Source of the DNA: Candidatus Schekmanbacteria bacterium
GTDB taxonomy: Bacteria; CSSED10-310; JACPHN01
NCBI GenBank assembly: GCA_016188575.1
Contig: JACPHN010000017.1
Location: 1-11,821, forward strand
DNA length: 11,821 bases
Direction of reading: 5' to 3'
The notes beneath the pieces were generated by a model that saw nothing but the letters and a program-made list of their open reading frames with translations, was not told the origin of the DNA and did not search any database. Numbering within the stretch: the first letter of the stretch is position 1; the number at the start of each line of letters is the position of its first letter. A program made the translations under genes and the position numbers. This document shows positions 82-9,355 of the stretch, piece by piece.

Positions 82-1760
82 TCACGTGTCGGCCCACTTT
101 ATGTGAGCGAATGCGGCACCTATCTGGTGAGCGTCGAAGGCGGCGGTCAGGCGCAGCCACCCGAGTCGCTTGAAGGTCTGGATCTGCTGGGCGCGCGGGC
201 TGTAGCCCAGCTCCTTGAGCCAGTCGCCGACCCGTTCTCCGGTGAGCAGCTCGTGGGGGCTTATGCCTTTGCGGAGCCCGTCCGCGAATGGCGTGAGATT
301 GAGCATGGCGACGCGTAGATGGAGGAATCCGCTGCTCATGCGCTTCTGCGGGGCGATCACGGCAGCGATCCGGCCATTGGCCCACTCCACGGGGATGCTG
401 GCGGCGAGCACGTCGCGGAAATCAACGTAGAGGCTCTGGAGAATCTGCTCCGTCTGTACGCCGATCAGATTCGGGAACCCTCCCAGCGCCTTCGGCGCTG
501 GGCGCCGCCCTAGACCTCGCTACGCTCGGTTGGTGAGCTTTCCCCAGAGTGTGACCCTGTCGCGATGAAAACGCTCGCGAGTGCCAGGCCAGGTGGCCGC
601 ACGCTCGTGTCGGTCCAGCTCCCAGAGTCGGGCTGCGGTTTCAACCGCTTCCCACGGGACACGCCCTCGTTCGGCGACCCCGCGCATCACCTCGACGTAT
701 GCCTGGCGTTCCTGGACCAGGGCGTAACCCACCGACAGGCGGTTGCGCGCCGCCTCGCGAGCTATCGTCGTCCCCACTTCGTGCAGTTCCGCGGCCACCT
801 CGGCGAGGACTGCCCGCGCGCCCTCGACGCCATTGGTGTGGCCGCTGACAGGATCGATCAGGTTGAGCGCACCATGGGCACGCTCCACAGCTTGCCCGAT
901 GGCGTGGGCGCTGTCGACGGCCTCTCGCTCACGGATCGTGGCGGCCTCGAGCGTCCGCTCCAGCTTCCCCCCAGGCGTTGGCTGCGAAGGTGCTTGGCGG
1001 CAGCGCTTCCGTACCCGGTCGAGCTCCTCGATGGCCCGATAGGCCGCCGCTCCACTTGCGCGCGTACCTTTTCGAGAGCCCGTCGGAGGTGGTTGATGTC
1101 ATGCGCTCCCCGCGCTGTTGGATTAACCTCTCCCACCGCCTTCGCGATCGCGCTGGACCCATCGAAGCCGGCATGTTCGGGGCAGAGGCCTTGCTGGTCT
1201 CGCAAACGTTCGAGCACCCTCTGCCATTGGGCGGCTCCGCACCCGGGCTGCTTTTCCACCAGGAAGATTAAGAGACTGTCGGTATCGACTCCCGTCAGCT
1301 CGCAGCGGTCCCACCGATACATCTCGTCGAGACCGATGCGCGAGATCCCGCTCAGGTCAACGCTCTCGCGGTAATTGAAAGCACGCTGGTACGCCTCCTG
1401 GAGCACCTCCCGGACAGTGTCTTCGGCGATCCCGAGCGAGAAAACCTCCCGGACCATGGCAACGATCATCGCGTGAGTCGCGCCGCAGATAGCCCGTAGA
1501 GCGACGATGGCGCGCTTGATAGCGTTGGCGTCCACCTGGACTCAGTAGCTTTCGAGCCCGGGCGCGGTCGCTGGTGTCGACTGCCCATTGAAGACCGTCT
1601 CGAGAGCCTTGCGCCCCTTGTCAGCGATGATGTACAGGGTCGGGCGGGACACACCGGCCTCGCGGGCGGCTTGTGAGCGGTTCAGCCCGGGAGGCGCGGT
1701 GACCTTGGCGCTAATCTGGATGCGATCGGATGCCGAGAGAGACCGGTGGTGAGCAGACAT
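82..1760 (-). pseudogene. Decayed transposase (HTH plus DDE-like core), two stops and one frameshift
   Basis: Read together, three minus-strand frames make one protein of about 560 codons. The N-terminal part starts at an ATG at 1760 with GGAG nine bases upstream, and has a helix-turn-helix (NRSQAAREAGVSRPTLY). It runs into a TGA at 1542-1544, just before VQVDANAIK. The same frame resumes through a catalytic-core-like stretch with IGLDEMYRWD and GVDTDSLLIF, as in transposases that carry an IALDEIF-type motif. Near 1050 one base appears to be lost: the frame changes in QVE/AAAYRAIEEL. The new frame runs to a TAG at 520-522 (LTNRA*), and then on in the same frame to a TGA at 82. The tail carries ISPHELLTGERVGDWLKELG, which resembles the SPAELL...DWLE.LG tail of that transposase type. 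The family name is not certain. The element looks inactive. Convincing terminal inverted repeats or target duplications were not found: TGTCGG at 87-92 and CCGGACA at 1931-1937 are the best weak candidates. A minus-frame tail at 5-90 may belong to the interrupted host sequence. Confidence 0.75.
482..531. repeat. Palindromic unit inside the broken transposase
   Basis: A perfect 9-bp stem (CCCAGCGCC, 482-490, with GGCGCTGGG, 494-502) closes a TTC loop. It is followed by a GC-rich spacer and CCTCGCTACGCTCGG (517-531). The transposase frame's TAG stop falls inside this block, and the codons translated from it (RGLGRRPAPKALG) do not look like family sequence. This fits a short REP/MITE-like palindromic unit inserted in the gene. 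A native hairpin cannot be excluded. The outer boundaries are approximate. Confidence 0.45.
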
Positions 1761-3276: not shown

Positions 3277-5742
3277 ATGAGCTTCTCCGATCCGCTCCCT
3301 ACCGCCGCGCTCTACCGTCGCTGCGACCCCGAGTCGCTTCCCTTCCGCACCACCACGGAGCTCACGGACGGCGACGAAATCGTCGGCCATGAACGGGCTA
3401 CCGAGGCTCTCAGGTTCGGCGTCGGCATGCGGCGCCCGGGATTCAATCTGTTCGCGCTCGGCTCTCCCGGCACCGGCCGGCACTCGCTCATCCTGCGCTT
3501 CCTCGAGGCGCGCGCCGCGACCGAGCCGACGCAGTCCGATTGGTGCTACGTCAACAACTTCGCAGCGCAACACCAGCCCATTGCCATCAAGCTCCCCGCA
3601 GGAAAGGGCGCGGTCTTCCGGCGCGACATGGAACGGCTCGTCGACGAGCTGCGCACCGTCGTCCCTGCTGCGCTCGACACCGACGAGTTCCGCGCCAAGC
3701 TCCAGGAGCTCGAAAACGCCTTCGTCGACCGCCGTGACGAGGCGCTCGACGAGCTCCAACGCGAAGCGCGGCAGCGCAGCATCGCGCTGCTCCGCACGCC
3801 CGCCGGTTACGCCTTCACTCCCATACGCGAAGGACAGGTGCTCAGCCCCGACGAGTTTGCGGAGCTTCCCCAGCACGACCAGGACGCCGTCAAGGAGGTC
3901 GTCGCGGACCTCCAGCACAAGCTCCAGGCGATCCTCAGAGAAATCCCCAAGTGGCGCCGCGAAAACCAGCGCAAGGCGCGGGAGCTCACCGCGCAGGTGA
4001 CCCGCACCGCTGTCGAGCACCTCATCGCCGAGCTTCGCGAGGCATACGCCGATTCTCCCGAAATCGCCGCCCACCTCGACGCCATCGAAAAGGTTGTCAT
4101 CGAGCAGGCCGGCGAGTTCAAACAGGAAGAAGAGGCGACTCCGAGCTCCCCACAGGAACCTGGCACCGCGCAACCCGGGAGCAGCCTGGACCGCTTCCGC
4201 GTCAACGTCATCGTGGATCGCACCGGAGCTTCCGGAGCCCCCGTGATCTATGAGGACAATCCGACCTTGCAGAACCTCGTCGGTCGTGTCGAATACCTGT
4301 CGCTCTTCGGTGCGCTCGTCACCAACTTCACGCTGATCAAGGCAGGTGCGTTGCACCGCGCCAACGGCGGCTACCTCATGCTCGACGCCCTCAAGGTGCT
4401 GCAGGAGCCCTACGCCTGGGAGGCTCTGAAGCGATCCCTGTCCGCGGGGTCGGTCAAGATCGAATCCCCCGGCGAGCTCCTGGGACTCACCAGCACCGTC
4501 AGCCTCGACCCGCAACCCATTCCCCTGTCGACGAAAATCGTCCTGATCGGTGACGACCGCACCTACCACTTCTTGTCGCTGTTCGACCCGGACTTCTGCA
4601 AGCACTTCAAGGTACTGGCGGACTTCGATGACAGCGTCGACCGCAATGCCGACACCGTCCTGGCCTACGCGCGGTTCATCGCCATGCTCGCCCGGCGTGA
4701 AAACCTGCGCGCCTTCGACCGCGGCGCCGTCGCCCGCGTGGTCGAGCACGCCTCACGGCTGGAGGAAGACGCCGAGAAGCTTACGACGCGCATGCGCGAC
4801 ATTGCCGATCTCCTCCTGGAAGCCGACTATTGGGCCGCGGAGGCGGCGCGCGACGTCGTCGCCGAGGTCGACGTCAAGCGCGCCATCCAGGCACAGGTGC
4901 GTCGCTCCGACCGCATTCGGCAGGAGTCCATCGAGGTCATGCTGCGCGGCCTGCAGTTCGTCGAAACTGACGGCGAGCGGATCGGACAGGTCAACGGCCT
5001 GGCCGTCATCGACCTCGGGAATTTCGCTTTCGGACATCCTTCCCGCATCACGGCATCCGTGCGCATCGGCGAAGGCGACGTGATCGACATCGAGCGAGAG
5101 GTAAAGCTGGCGGGCTCCGTCCATTCCAAGGCTGTGCACATCCTCACCGCCTTTCTGGCGACGCGCTATGCGGAGCACGACCCACTTGCGATCACCGCCA
5201 GTCTCGCCATGGAACAATCCTATGGCCGCGTCGACGGCGACAGCGCTTCGCTGGCGGAAACCTGCGCCTTGCTTTCCGCGTTAGGCCAAATCCCCATTCG
5301 CCAGTCGCTGGCCATTACTGGTTCGATGGATCAGTTCGGTAGGGCGCAGCCCATCGGCGGCGTAAACGAAAAAATCGAAGGCTTCTTCGACCTCTGCAAG
5401 GCCCGCGGCCTGACCGGCAGACACGGTGTCGTCATCCCGAAGACCAATGTGTCCAGTTTGATGCTGCGCCACGACGTCGTGGAGGCGGTTCGCAATGGCC
5501 AGTTCAACGTCTACGCCGTGGAATCTCTGGATGAGGCCGTGAGCCTGCTCACCGGCTTGCCCGCCGGAGAGCGCCAGGACGACGGGTCATACCCGCCCGA
5601 CACCGTGAACGAACGGGTCCTGGCGCGCACGAGCGCCTTTGCGGTCACCATGCGCGAGCTGGACACGCATGGTGACGACGACTCTGCGCATCACGCCGCC
5701 GAGACCGAGAAGCCGGAAAACGACGCCGGCGACTCGCAGTGA
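3277..5742 (+). CDS. Lon-related AAA ATP-dependent protease (AAA_32/S16 type)
   Basis: An 821-aa cytoplasmic protease of the Lon-related group related to LonB and E. coli YcbZ, not classical LonA: there is no LonA substrate-binding N-domain. It would unfold and degrade proteins using ATP. The P-loop-like motif is GSPGTGRHS (62-70), with Arg68 where the usual Lys stands. A charged helical insert, probably coiled coil, spans about 110-280. The Walker B-like motif is GGYLMLDA (364-371). The S16 protease domain starts near 569 and has catalytic Ser656 in DGDSAS and Lys699 in GGVNEKIEGF. These are 43 residues apart, as in E. coli Lon (679/722), so the peptidase should be active. The tail after about 795 is acidic. 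The start ATG has AAGGA eight bases upstream (3264-3268). The gene follows the CBS-ACT gene by 30 bp, suggesting that proteolysis is tied to a nucleotide or amino-acid signal (inference). Confidence 0.95.
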   Translation: MSFSDPLPTAALYRRCDPESLPFRTTTELTDGDEIVGHERATEALRFGVGMRRPGFNLFALGSPGTGRHSLILRFLEARAATEPTQSDWCYVNNFAAQHQPIAIKLPAGKGAVFRRDMERLVDELRTVVPAALDTDEFRAKLQELENAFVDRRDEALDELQREARQRSIALLRTPAGYAFTPIREGQVLSPDEFAELPQHDQDAVKEVVADLQHKLQAILREIPKWRRENQRKARELTAQVTRTAVEHLIAELREAYADSPEIAAHLDAIEKVVIEQAGEFKQEEEATPSSPQEPGTAQPGSSLDRFRVNVIVDRTGASGAPVIYEDNPTLQNLVGRVEYLSLFGALVTNFTLIKAGALHRANGGYLMLDALKVLQEPYAWEALKRSLSAGSVKIESPGELLGLTSTVSLDPQPIPLSTKIVLIGDDRTYHFLSLFDPDFCKHFKVLADFDDSVDRNADTVLAYARFIAMLARRENLRAFDRGAVARVVEHASRLEEDAEKLTTRMRDIADLLLEADYWAAEAARDVVAEVDVKRAIQAQVRRSDRIRQESIEVMLRGLQFVETDGERIGQVNGLAVIDLGNFAFGHPSRITASVRIGEGDVIDIEREVKLAGSVHSKAVHILTAFLATRYAEHDPLAITASLAMEQSYGRVDGDSASLAETCALLSALGQIPIRQSLAITGSMDQFGRAQPIGGVNEKIEGFFDLCKARGLTGRHGVVIPKTNVSSLMLRHDVVEAVRNGQFNVYAVESLDEAVSLLTGLPAGERQDDGSYPPDTVNERVLARTSAFAVTMRELDTHGDDDSAHHAAETEKPENDAGDSQ

Positions 5743-5778: not shown

Positions 5779-8004
5779 TCAATAGTGCCGCTCGAGCACG
5801 TACCAGCCGAACGAGCGCAACATGATCTTGGGCATCGAATCCTCCACCAGCGGGTCGAGCCGCTGCCAGGCGTCGTCCACGAGCTCCCGCGCCTGGCGGC
5901 TGCATGCCGCGAGCGCCCCGCAAGCCTCGAGGCGGTCGACCACGCTCCCCACAATCGCCGGGTCCTGCGACTGTTGCCGCAAGGTCTCCCAGAGCCACTC
6001 GCGCTCCTCGCGCCCCAGCAAGGACATTGCCTTGGCGACCGGCAACGTGACCTTTCCCTGGGAGATGTCTTCGCCGCGCTGTTTCAAGTCGCGCTCGAAA
6101 CCGCTCAAGTTGAGCACGTCATCGACTATCTGAAACGCCAGCCCGACCGCCTCGAAGAACCGCCCGACACCGTCGATCTGCGCCGCGCTCCCGCCGCCGG
6201 CGATGCCGCCCATGCGCGCCAGCGCCCCTGCGGGCGCGGCCGTCTTGAGCCGATGCACCGCCAATACCTGCTCCTCCAGCAGGCGGCCATCCCCTGTTTC
6301 CACGATCTGCGGCATGATATCGTCGAAACCGCCCAGGTCGAGCGCCTGCCCGGCGTGCCCGGCGCGCAATGCCTCGAAGTACAGATCGTAGAGCTTGAGC
6401 TTGTCGGCGCTGGACAAGGTGGGCGCCGAGAGGAGCCGCTGCCCCATGAAGTAGCATGCGGTACCGGCGTTGATGGCAAGCGCCTCCCCGTAGATCACGT
6501 GCGCCGGCGGGCCGCCGCGCCGCACTGTCGAACGATCCTGGACATCGTCCACGATCAGTGAGCCCACGTGCATGAGCTCGGGCATGGCCAACCACCTCAC
6601 GAAGTCGCGCGAATCGCCGCCGACGACGTCACAGCAGGCCAGCGCTGCATAGGATCGCCAGGACTTCCCGCCACGATCGGTGATCTCCCGAACGGGCTTG
6701 CACATCGTGCGCACGAGCTTTTCGCTATCGACACCGACCATCTGCTGCTCGCGCTCGGGGCTGGCGATCATGTCGCGCACTTGCGCAAACGTCGGATTGA
6801 AGGGCAAAAGTGACTGCACCGACTTGCGGACTTCTTTGCCCACCTGCTTGAAAAAATCATCGAGTGTCTCGACTACGTCGAAGCCGCTTCGCTCGATAAA
6901 CCCCAGCCCCTTCACGGTCTCACCGAGCACCCGACCCGAAACCTCGACTCGCCCCTCCCAAAAAGCGGGCTTGGAAATCAACGTGACGAACTCCTGGTCG
7001 TCGAATACTCCGTCGATGTCCAGTGACAGGTCACCGTCCGGGGCATCGACGTGCCAGTGCGTGGGGTATTCGTTGAAGGTTCGGGTGCTGCGCCAGACGT
7101 TCGCGAACGAAATCGTCGCTGGAAACAGATGGCGACGGTGCTCGCGATCGACGACGATAACCTTGCTGTTGAGCAGCTCGCCGGTCTGGCAGTCGACGAG
7201 CTGCGCCGCCGTGACGTCAAAGCCGTTATCGAGTTGCAGCGCGCACCAGTTCCAGCCGATGTCGCGACGTTTGTCGCGGCGTTCCTCCTGCTTGCCGCCG
7301 AACTCGTGATCGTACCAGGCCGTGCCGGTGAGAACCTGCTGCTCCACGGCATTGATGGTCACGGTCCCGGTTACGTCGCACTTGGGGATAAAGTAATAGA
7401 ACATCGTTTCGCCACCCTGGATGTCGACGATTCCATCCTCTCCATGGCGGATCGGGGGGCGGCGGGGACGCAAGACGAGATTGCAGCCGACGCGTTCTCG
7501 TTCGTTGTACAGCTCGAGCTCGTAGCAGTTGTCGTCACGCTTGCAGAAACGCTGGCCATCGAGCTCCAGCGCGAGGCGTCGCGCCCCGACGTGGACGTCG
7601 CCCTTGAACATTCGATCCGGATACGGGACGTGGCCCTTCTCGAGAATCTCACGCATGGCGCGCCGCAGCCGCTGATCCGGGGTTCCCTCGCCCTGCTCGA
7701 GCTTGTCGAGCGCGAGCCGCGGTGCGTCCTTGTCGACCAGCGAGATCGCGTGGTATTTCCGGGCGTCGGCATCCACGTACGCCCACGTAATCGAGTGGGC
7801 GTAGTGGAGCTCCTTGGTGACCTCGTCCTGGGCTTTGACGATGCGGAAGAACGAAGCGAAAATCGAGATCGAGCGATGGTCCGACGTATGGAGGTGGGTG
7901 TTTACGTACCACCATTCCGTCGCCGCACTGCGGTGCGGCAGGTCGTGCACAGCCAGATCGATGGGTCCTGCCTGTGGCCAGTCCGCCGGAATCTTCTTGC
8001 TCAT
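5779..8004 (-). CDS. Fusion: CrtC/AttH-like lipocalin domain plus trans-isoprenyl diphosphate synthase
   Basis: A 741-aa two-domain enzyme. Residues 1-375 carry the signature of carotenoid 1,2-hydratase (CrtC)/AttH proteins: EWWYVN (30-35), GTAWYDHEFG (227-236), GWNWCALQLDNG (250-261), AFWEGRVEVSG (347-357) and GFIERSGF (368-375). Residues about 400-741 are a complete trans-prenyltransferase: GGKSWR (445-450), first Asp motif DDVQD (486-490), RRGGPPAH, GQALDL (552-557), KTAAP, second motif DDVLN (628-632) and GKVTLP (650-655). It should condense IPP with an allylic diphosphate. Gly481, five residues before the first Asp motif, is small, which usually allows chains longer than C15. The N-terminal domain could hydrate or cyclise the prenyl product (inference). 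The ATG at 8004 has GAGGG six bases upstream (8011-8015). A longer frame to 8130 would overlap HMGR and lacks support. The gene lies 37 bp after HMGR in one operon. No signal peptide is seen. Confidence 0.93.
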   Translation of the reverse strand: MSKKIPADWPQAGPIDLAVHDLPHRSAATEWWYVNTHLHTSDHRSISIFASFFRIVKAQDEVTKELHYAHSITWAYVDADARKYHAISLVDKDAPRLALDKLEQGEGTPDQRLRRAMREILEKGHVPYPDRMFKGDVHVGARRLALELDGQRFCKRDDNCYELELYNERERVGCNLVLRPRRPPIRHGEDGIVDIQGGETMFYYFIPKCDVTGTVTINAVEQQVLTGTAWYDHEFGGKQEERRDKRRDIGWNWCALQLDNGFDVTAAQLVDCQTGELLNSKVIVVDREHRRHLFPATISFANVWRSTRTFNEYPTHWHVDAPDGDLSLDIDGVFDDQEFVTLISKPAFWEGRVEVSGRVLGETVKGLGFIERSGFDVVETLDDFFKQVGKEVRKSVQSLLPFNPTFAQVRDMIASPEREQQMVGVDSEKLVRTMCKPVREITDRGGKSWRSYAALACCDVVGGDSRDFVRWLAMPELMHVGSLIVDDVQDRSTVRRGGPPAHVIYGEALAINAGTACYFMGQRLLSAPTLSSADKLKLYDLYFEALRAGHAGQALDLGGFDDIMPQIVETGDGRLLEEQVLAVHRLKTAAPAGALARMGGIAGGGSAAQIDGVGRFFEAVGLAFQIVDDVLNLSGFERDLKQRGEDISQGKVTLPVAKAMSLLGREEREWLWETLRQQSQDPAIVGSVVDRLEACGALAACSRQARELVDDAWQRLDPLVEDSMPKIMLRSFGWYVLERHY

Positions 8005-8041
8005 CGCGTTCCCTCGCGTTTCCCTCTGCTGCTGTGTGCGG

Positions 8042-9337
8042 TCATCTGGGCTTTTTGCAGTCGAAGTCGGCGTTTCTGGTGAGCGCCGTGGTTCCTCTGG
8101 CGAGACGCTCGTGGGCGCTGGCAAGCTCATTGGAGGAGAGCGCCGCGAGCAGAGAAACCTCCCCCGCGAGCACGGCCGCGCCGACGAGCTCCGCCAGCCG
8201 CATGACGGCCGCGCCCACCTCCGCGCCGTCCGGGGTAATTCCCATCAAGGCCAGCGCCTCGCGCTGCGTCTCCAGGCCGGTGCCACCGCCTAGCGCCGCG
8301 AGCGGCACGTCGGGCAGATACACGGATGCGTAAATAGCGCCGTTATCCCGGGCTTCGACGCAAGTGACGCCGAGCGAACCTTCGACGACCTGGGCAACGT
8401 CCTGCCCCGTGGCGATGAAGAACGCCGCGAGGATGTTGGCGTAGTGGGCGTTGAACCCCATGGCGCCGGCGGCGATCGAGCCGAGAAGATTCTTCCGGTA
8501 CTGGACCTCGGCCAACACGGCGGCGGTCGTCTTGAGCGTTTTCCGCAGGACGTCCGCGGCGATCGTCACCTCCGCGTGGATGCGCTTGCCTCGCCCGAGC
8601 ACGAAGTTGAGGGCGGAGGGCTTCTTGTCCACACAGTAGTTGCCGGAGATCGCCACGCAGGCGACACCGGTCTCGGGCTCGATGATCTCGCGGACGATGC
8701 GATCCACCGCAAACGTGGTCATATTCATCCCCATCGCGTCGCCGCACGCGAAGCGGAAGCGCAGAAAGACGGTGGCTCCCATGATCGTCGAGCTGACCTC
8801 TCGCAGCCGCAGGTAGCGGCTCGTCGATGCGGTCAGCTCCTCAAACCGCGTGACGTTGACCTCGACCCACTGCACGAGCGCCCGACTTTCGATGATGCCG
8901 CTCGTCCGGAATACCGGCCCTCGCGTCATCCCGACATCCTCGACGAACACCGTCGCCCCGCCGGAACGGCGCAAGGCGGCGCAGCCGCGATTGACGCTGG
9001 CAATCAGCGCCGCCTCGGTGGTCGCCAGAGGAAGATAGAACTCCCCATTGGCGTAGTTGCCGTTTACGGGGATCGGCCCGGCGATCCCTACCGGCACTTG
9101 TGCCGCTCCGATGAAGTTCTCGCAATGGCGGTGCGACGCTTTCCGCGCGTCGAGCGAGTAGCTACCCAGATGATCCAGGGAAGCTCCCGTCATTTCGCTG
9201 AGGGCCTGACGGCGAACCGCGGCGGCTTCCTCAGGCGCGATGACGGCGGGAAGCTCGTGCATGCGCCGCTCGCCCGAGACCAGGGAGCGCACGAGCTCGT
9301 CGCGGTCGAGGAGGTGTGACTTGTTTGAGTGCTCCAT
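8042..9337 (-). CDS. hmgA: HMG-CoA reductase, class I
   Basis: A 431-aa soluble catalytic core without the membrane anchor of the eukaryotic enzyme. It reduces HMG-CoA to mevalonate with two NAD(P)H, the committed step of the mevalonate pathway. Conserved blocks are ENFIGAAQVPVGIAGPIP (73-90), TTEAAL with catalytic Glu108, DAMGMNM (200-206), DKKPSALN with Lys238, GQD with Asp313, GGGTGLETQ (350-358) and SAHERLAR with His409. All four residues matching human Glu559/Lys691/Asp767/His866 are present, so activity is expected. The sequence is of the archaeal/eukaryotic class I type, not class II (MvaA). The ATG at 9337 was chosen; a TTG at 9343 is an alternative, and upstream Shine-Dalgarno pairing is weak for both. 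The gene lies 18 bp after the lipoprotein stop and 37 bp before the prenyl synthase fusion. Other mevalonate genes are not in the window. Confidence 0.97.
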   Translation of the reverse strand: MEHSNKSHLLDRDELVRSLVSGERRMHELPAVIAPEEAAAVRRQALSEMTGASLDHLGSYSLDARKASHRHCENFIGAAQVPVGIAGPIPVNGNYANGEFYLPLATTEAALIASVNRGCAALRRSGGATVFVEDVGMTRGPVFRTSGIIESRALVQWVEVNVTRFEELTASTSRYLRLREVSSTIMGATVFLRFRFACGDAMGMNMTTFAVDRIVREIIEPETGVACVAISGNYCVDKKPSALNFVLGRGKRIHAEVTIAADVLRKTLKTTAAVLAEVQYRKNLLGSIAAGAMGFNAHYANILAAFFIATGQDVAQVVEGSLGVTCVEARDNGAIYASVYLPDVPLAALGGGTGLETQREALALMGITPDGAEVGAAVMRLAELVGAAVLAGEVSLLAALSSNELASAHERLARGTTALTRNADFDCKKPR

Positions 9338-9355
9338 CAGCAATCCGAGCCGTCA

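Follow-up and report, generated by a model that had tools for sequence, protein, structure and literature searches.

Two characterised relatives of the protein described here, CrtC and kievitone hydratase, hydrate the terminal double bond of a prenyl group. CrtC adds water to the terminal dimethylallyl double bond and hydrates terpenes of C12-C20, farnesol and geranylgeraniol among them; Asp268 is its proton donor, at which docking placed the terminal prenyl unit, Trp283 and Trp285 are cation-stabilising, mutation of Asp268 was detrimental, and mutation of either Trp drastically reduced or abolished activity (PMC12402844). The residues required for CrtC activity also include His239, Trp241 and Tyr266 (PMC4717167). 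Kievitone hydratase of Nectria haematococca (7a0q/7a0t), a single-domain, secreted fungal enzyme that acts on an isoflavonoid, adds water to a terminal prenyl (dimethylallyl) double bond (PMC5805349). The same fold occurs in 25-phosphosteroid lyase (9g4c), whose reaction is the elimination of phosphate at a tertiary isoprenoid carbon (PMC11061730), and in AttH/NE1406 (2ich), a stand-alone protein of uncharacterised function often found with ABC transporters, whose relatives have been associated with these transporters and with lipid metabolism (PMC2954199). In the fungal chimeric synthase-cyclases such as PvCPS, a chain-building synthase is joined to a chain-processing enzyme, which in principle resembles the arrangement reported below. 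The partner domains of the fungal proteins are helical terpene cyclases, not lipocalin-fold domains.

The gene analysed here lies in an 11,821-nt stretch of DNA (the window) and encodes a lipocalin-fold domain joined to a polyprenyl diphosphate synthase. CrtC shares with it the family PF07143 and the equivalents of Asp268, Trp283 and Trp285, but has His239, Trp241 and Tyr266 and is not fused to a synthase; kievitone hydratase likewise lacks the synthase half. No account of this architecture was found in a literature search that covered mainly open-access papers, in line with the sequence-only reading of the window, which knew of no characterised example.

Two domains in one reading frame

The gene and its parts are as follows.

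5779..8004, minus strand: fusion gene, 741 aa, lipocalin-fold hydratase-like domain plus polyprenyl diphosphate synthase (translation, Pfam, full-length homologues, AlphaFold model)
8011..8015, minus strand: GAGGG, ribosome binding site of the fusion, a few bases 5' of the ATG at 8004
6883..7920, minus strand: CrtC N-terminal lipocalin domain plus Lipocalin_9, residues 29-374, double-barrel fold (Pfam; fold matches to AttH 2ich and kievitone hydratase)
7297..7317, minus strand: WYDHEFG, residues 230-236, with Asp232 aligned to CrtC Asp268 (alignment with CrtC, kievitone hydratase and AttH)
7246..7254, minus strand: W-N-W, residues 251-253, aligned to CrtC Trp283 and Trp285 (alignment)
5782..6873, minus strand: polyprenyl diphosphate synthase fold, residues 378-741 (Pfam match 434-690; structural alignments from about 377-383)
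6535..6549, minus strand: DDVQD, first aspartate-rich motif, residues 486-490 (all three Asp in 52/52 fusions)
6109..6123, minus strand: DDVLN, second aspartate-rich motif, residues 628-632 (both leading Asp in 52/52 fusions)

The open reading frame ran from the ATG at 8004 to the stop at 5779 with neither a stop nor a frameshift between the two domains. Pfam placed CrtC (PF07143) at residues 29-236 (E 3e-20; 73.9 bits against a cut-off of 22.5), Lipocalin_9 (PF17186) at residues 248-374 (E 5e-18, above the curated cut-off) and polyprenyl_synt (PF00348) at residues 434-690 (E 4e-46; 157.9 bits against 27; profile positions 4-249 of 251), so that each half, and not the prenyltransferase half alone, matched its own family. 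The sequence-only reading had described a single uninterrupted polypeptide with two complete domains, motifs at residues 30-375 and 445-655 and one good ribosome binding site, and all of these points agreed with our results. A longer in-frame ORF opens at 8130, but the homologues begin near residues 1-6 of the 741-aa protein.

Every catalytic motif of the synthase was present, including the substrate-binding Arg and Lys587, and residues D486, D487, D490, R495, R496, K587, Q625, D628 and D629 were invariant in all 52 fusions; the third position of the second aspartate-rich motif was N in 45 of these and D in 7. The best fold match of this half was the P. horikoshii GGPP synthase 1wy0 (Z 36.7), and the synthase domain of PvCPS also matched it in fold. 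The whole fold and the catalytic motifs are held in common with geranylgeranyl and longer-chain trans-prenyl diphosphate synthases (e.g., 1wy0), from which the fusion differs in its GGK-S/A-WR and DDxxN variants and in the fused lipocalin domain. Small residues (Ser, Gly) at positions -4 and -5 before the first DDxxD would, by the known rules, argue against a short product, and we assign a chain of C20 or longer with low confidence. The family 2 encapsulin cargo polyprenyl transferase (NF041169) was rejected as an assignment (131.3 bits against a cut-off of 450).

An AlphaFold model built from the 52 fusions had a mean pLDDT of 91.6 and a pTM of 0.90, suggesting that the two domains are held in a fixed arrangement; the lipocalin domain passes straight into the synthase fold at about residue 378, and thus there is no long free linker. 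The lipocalin half modelled alone (pLDDT 92.1) was closest in fold to AttH NE1406 (Z 36.8, 3.2 A, 310 residues), followed by kievitone hydratase (Z 32.4, 3.0 A, 300 residues), and a profile search gave 2ich at 6e-36 and 7a0q at 2e-13. The fungal Diels-Alderases, compared by fold only, fell below both (Z 22.6-23.6), 25-phosphosteroid lyase scored Z 22.4, and all further matches listed were at Z <10, although such lists cannot exclude other families.

Distribution of the fusion family

A scan of 84,980 species genomes yielded 80 loci, most of them full-length fusions of 30-62% identity, in Myxococcota, Bacteroidota (Flavobacterium, Spirosoma, Membranihabitans, Saprospiraceae, Filimonas), Thermoplasmata archaea, Actinomycetota, one cyanobacterium and a Clostridia MAG; the fusion therefore spans at least six bacterial and archaeal phyla. 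A plasmid search added full-length fusions in Tolypothrix and Streptomyces canus, whereas the viral contigs and phage records searched held none. With so many independent full-length copies, found also in isolates such as Flavobacterium hydatis, F. pectinovorum, Streptomyces triculaminicus, Membranihabitans and Tolypothrix PCC 7601, a misassembly or chance fusion, which the sequence-only reading had named as a risk, is ruled out. One locus (L043) came from a record titled as a Klebsiella pneumoniae MAG, and its fusion and neighbours match Myxococcota loci; the bin is probably mislabelled or contaminated.

In profile surveys, each count of which takes in the genome on which the survey was centred, the fusion was found in 38 of 282 Myxococcota genomes, 6 of 249 Flavobacterium genomes (with a further copy divided between two overlapping frames), 4 of 297 Streptomycetaceae, 1 of 292 cyanobacteria and 4 of 200 genomes of the Thermoplasmata class, where the remaining matches were ordinary synthases. 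These low fractions show that the gene is accessory and sporadic within genera.

The pairwise distances of the lipocalin and synthase halves agreed closely (Spearman rho 0.92, 1,326 pairs), so the halves have mostly travelled together, and the simplest reading is that the fusion arose once. The tree of fusions was mostly grouped by phylum, with the archaeal clade sitting among bacterial ones. Separated halves were rare in the surveys of Myxococcota and Flavobacterium; apart from contig ends, none of the 282 Myxococcota genomes had a strong match to one half alone. Some Streptomyces carry synthase-only relatives of the fusion. The split Flavobacterium copy (L130:5859-8134, genome G282) has both halves well preserved in overlapping frames; it may be frameshifted, naturally split or the result of a sequencing error. 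A 649-aa relative on a Nitrosomonas stercoris plasmid (L039:11359-13308) has a front half that Pfam did not recognise as a lipocalin, and is directly followed by a gene for a flavin-binding monooxygenase.

Neighbouring genes and wider fusions

Two proteins of 1,509 residues, from Tolypothrix (L037:9646-14175) and a myxobacterium (L124:6075-10604), carried four parts in the order sulfotransferase, GT28/EryCIII-type glycosyltransferase, CrtC lipocalin and polyprenyl synthase, and point to an undescribed sulfated glycolipid. A DevBCA-type exporter lies beside the Tolypothrix protein and a sulfatase upstream of the myxobacterial one; sulfatase genes near L097, L119 and L124 were too few to weigh. 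Glycosyltransferase genes adjoined the fusion in four more loci, those of Cyanosarcina, Spirosoma, Membranihabitans and the Clostridia MAG (the last by a weak Pfam match), accompanied in Cyanosarcina and Spirosoma by an FkbM methyltransferase and in Membranihabitans by the upstream dTDP-rhamnose genes RmlC and RmlD. Most of the fusion loci scanned had no glycosyltransferase neighbour. Among the 25 families shown for 80 adjacent genes, the lipid-type glycosyltransferase families PF04101, PF00201 and PF06722 appeared in 3, 2 and 2 genes, respectively, and were not among the families shown for 80 distant control genes; this excess is a hint and not a test, as single weak control matches may be hidden. 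We looked among the fusion loci for a conserved operon or partner gene from which the pathway could be identified and found none, the neighbours varying by lineage. In several Myxococcota only, a protein of about 205 aa without a Pfam match (cluster c10; L049:2583-3200 and relatives) directly follows the fusion.

The gene upstream of the fusion in the window probably concerns isoprenoid supply.

8042..9343, minus strand: class I NADPH HMG-CoA reductase, a separate gene 37 bases upstream of the fusion (PF00368 3e-114; TIGR00533 above cut-off)

This reductase is likely to provide precursors for the fusion. The 9.2-Mb host genome contained one HMG-CoA-synthase-like gene, which scored below the cut-off of a eukaryote-type model, and a model search of the genome for DXS gave nothing above cut-off; the mevalonate route is therefore the probable source of IPP in this host, and the reductase and the fusion form a plausible supply-and-use pair. 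Two further polyprenyl synthases, and no Lipocalin_9 protein other than the fusion, were found in this genome. Elsewhere in the window, a LonB/LonC-type protease (AAA_32, LonC_helical, Lon_C; 3277-5742, plus strand) is convergent with the fusion, and an ORF at 858-1535 (minus strand), near one contig end, is possibly transposase-like by eye.

The lipocalin active site and its proposed chemistry

Since profile-based matching of the aligned fusions to a single CrtC sequence left the lipocalin unaligned, we placed the CrtC residues by multiple alignment and checked their spacing in R. litoralis CrtC against the published numbering. Asp232, Trp251 and Trp253 aligned with CrtC Asp268, Trp283 and Trp285, and likewise with their counterparts in kievitone hydratase and NE1406. 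This triad was intact in 46 of the 52 fusions, the exceptions all being actinobacterial, and position 232 was D or E in 50. Trp32 was not counted as a match of CrtC Trp110, as the same residue in NE1406 is the structural calycin Trp50 (PMC2954199). The positions of His239, Trp241 and Tyr266 held T200/M201, F202 and W230, so that three of the four residues found essential in CrtC in 2015 are changed and the domain is not filed as CrtC. The CrtC/AttH-like domain of the sequence-only reading was thus borne out by the PF07143 match and by AttH, the closest relative in fold and sequence (sharing the EWWY, W-x-D and W-x-W motifs), but does not extend to a true CrtC. Kievitone hydratase, at 14% identity, shares the double-barrel fold and the W-x-W pair, and its WYD motif, where CrtC has Y-x-D, places the fusion nearer to it at this motif.

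Every prenyl diphosphate ends in a terminal dimethylallyl group. We favour hydration because CrtC and kievitone hydratase, the characterised relatives with this site, hydrate the terminal prenyl bond, and we consider the chances evenly balanced that the fusion is a bifunctional enzyme that builds a prenyl diphosphate and, by hydration, turns its far end into a tertiary alcohol. In the order of reactions that we infer, the C-terminal synthase would condense IPP with an allylic primer to give the prenyl diphosphate (C20 or longer, with the low confidence given above), Asp232 would protonate the terminal C=C(CH3)2 bond, Trp251 and Trp253 would stabilise the tertiary cation, and water addition would yield an omega-hydroxy (tertiary alcohol) prenyl diphosphate, the hydroxyl of which might next be glycosylated and sulfated in some lineages. 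Glycosyltransferases and sulfotransferases usually need a hydroxyl as acceptor, and their fusion to, or presence beside, the gene therefore supports hydration. The invariant synthase motifs, the co-divergence of the two halves, the rarity of split copies and the HMG-CoA reductase immediately upstream also speak for the bifunctional enzyme. Against it, AttH, with no known activity, keeps the same Asp and Trp pair, so that these residues do not prove it; the loci without a glycosyltransferase, the few actinobacterial copies that have lost Asp or Trp, the synthase-only relatives in Streptomyces and the loss of the three CrtC residues also count against it.

The probable product of the fusion is an as yet undescribed isoprenoid with a hydroxyl at its end. 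If so, a fairly common, overlooked enzyme would make hydroxylated isoprenoid diphosphates within one protein, without oxygen or a cofactor, which would add a new branch to the isoprenoid chemistry of bacteria and archaea and provide a tool for the terminal hydration of terpenes, which is chemically hard. For the large, uncharacterised AttH/DUF2006 family, the fusion also suggests concretely what the substrate might be.

Asp232 could also serve in a proton-initiated cyclase or other pericyclase, in which protonation of the chain end would be followed by ring closure that quenches the cation, giving a cyclic isoprenoid diphosphate; the enzyme would then parallel the class II terpene cyclases on a lipocalin fold. 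The fungal Diels-Alderases have the same fold, and fungal synthase-cyclase fusions with matching synthase domains exist. However, the nearest characterised fold is a hydratase, well above the Diels-Alderases, and the glycosyltransferase partners better suit a hydroxylated product, which makes cyclisation unlikely in our view. Of the hydrated or cyclised product proposed by the sequence-only reading, the hydrated one thus became the leading idea, resting on the Asp, the Trp pair and the prenyl-group hydratase as nearest characterised fold, while cyclisation or a Diels-Alder reaction gained no specific support.

We give slightly less weight still to a non-catalytic lipocalin half that binds the completed isoprenoid for delivery to a membrane or to an ABC exporter, as proposed for AttH/DUF2006. 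The association of AttH relatives with ABC transporters would fit such a carrier, as would the ABC transporter genes that neighbour the fusion in Tolypothrix and in Streptomyces canus and the lost active-site residues of the Microtetraspora copies. These transporter genes are not a constant neighbour elsewhere, however, and all non-actinobacterial copies among the 52 kept the Asp and both Trp, which binding alone would not need. It is improbable that the lipocalin half acts on a tertiary or terminal isoprenoid carbon of a substrate that other enzymes make (the side chain of a carotenoid, of a quinone or of a sterol-like compound), or catalyses the reverse elimination, with the synthase only feeding the same pathway: CrtC and kievitone hydratase do act on finished molecules, and 25-phosphosteroid lyase works at a tertiary isoprenoid carbon (at about 9% identity, and by eliminating phosphate, not adding water), but the loci scanned showed neither a carotenoid nor a quinone gene next to the fusion (and the ORFs and Pfam matches of the window included no carotenoid gene), and the usual lack of a constant partner suggests action on its own product.

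Returning to hydration, we tentatively raise a wider possibility, which we hold with less confidence than the bifunctional enzyme itself: a horizontally spread, uncharacterised isoprenoid pathway of bacteria and archaea, in which one enzyme would make omega-hydroxylated prenyl diphosphates as a building block with groups at both ends, and in which fused or neighbouring enzymes of some lineages would glycosylate and sulfate the far end, so that the resulting isoprenoid lipids would be two-headed and of a new class.

L115 and L116 (Microtetraspora) and L113 (Streptomyces) have other residues in place of the Asp or a Trp of the lipocalin active site, with Asp232 and Trp251 both changed to Arg in the Microtetraspora copies; such actinobacterial copies provide a natural test of the role of this half.
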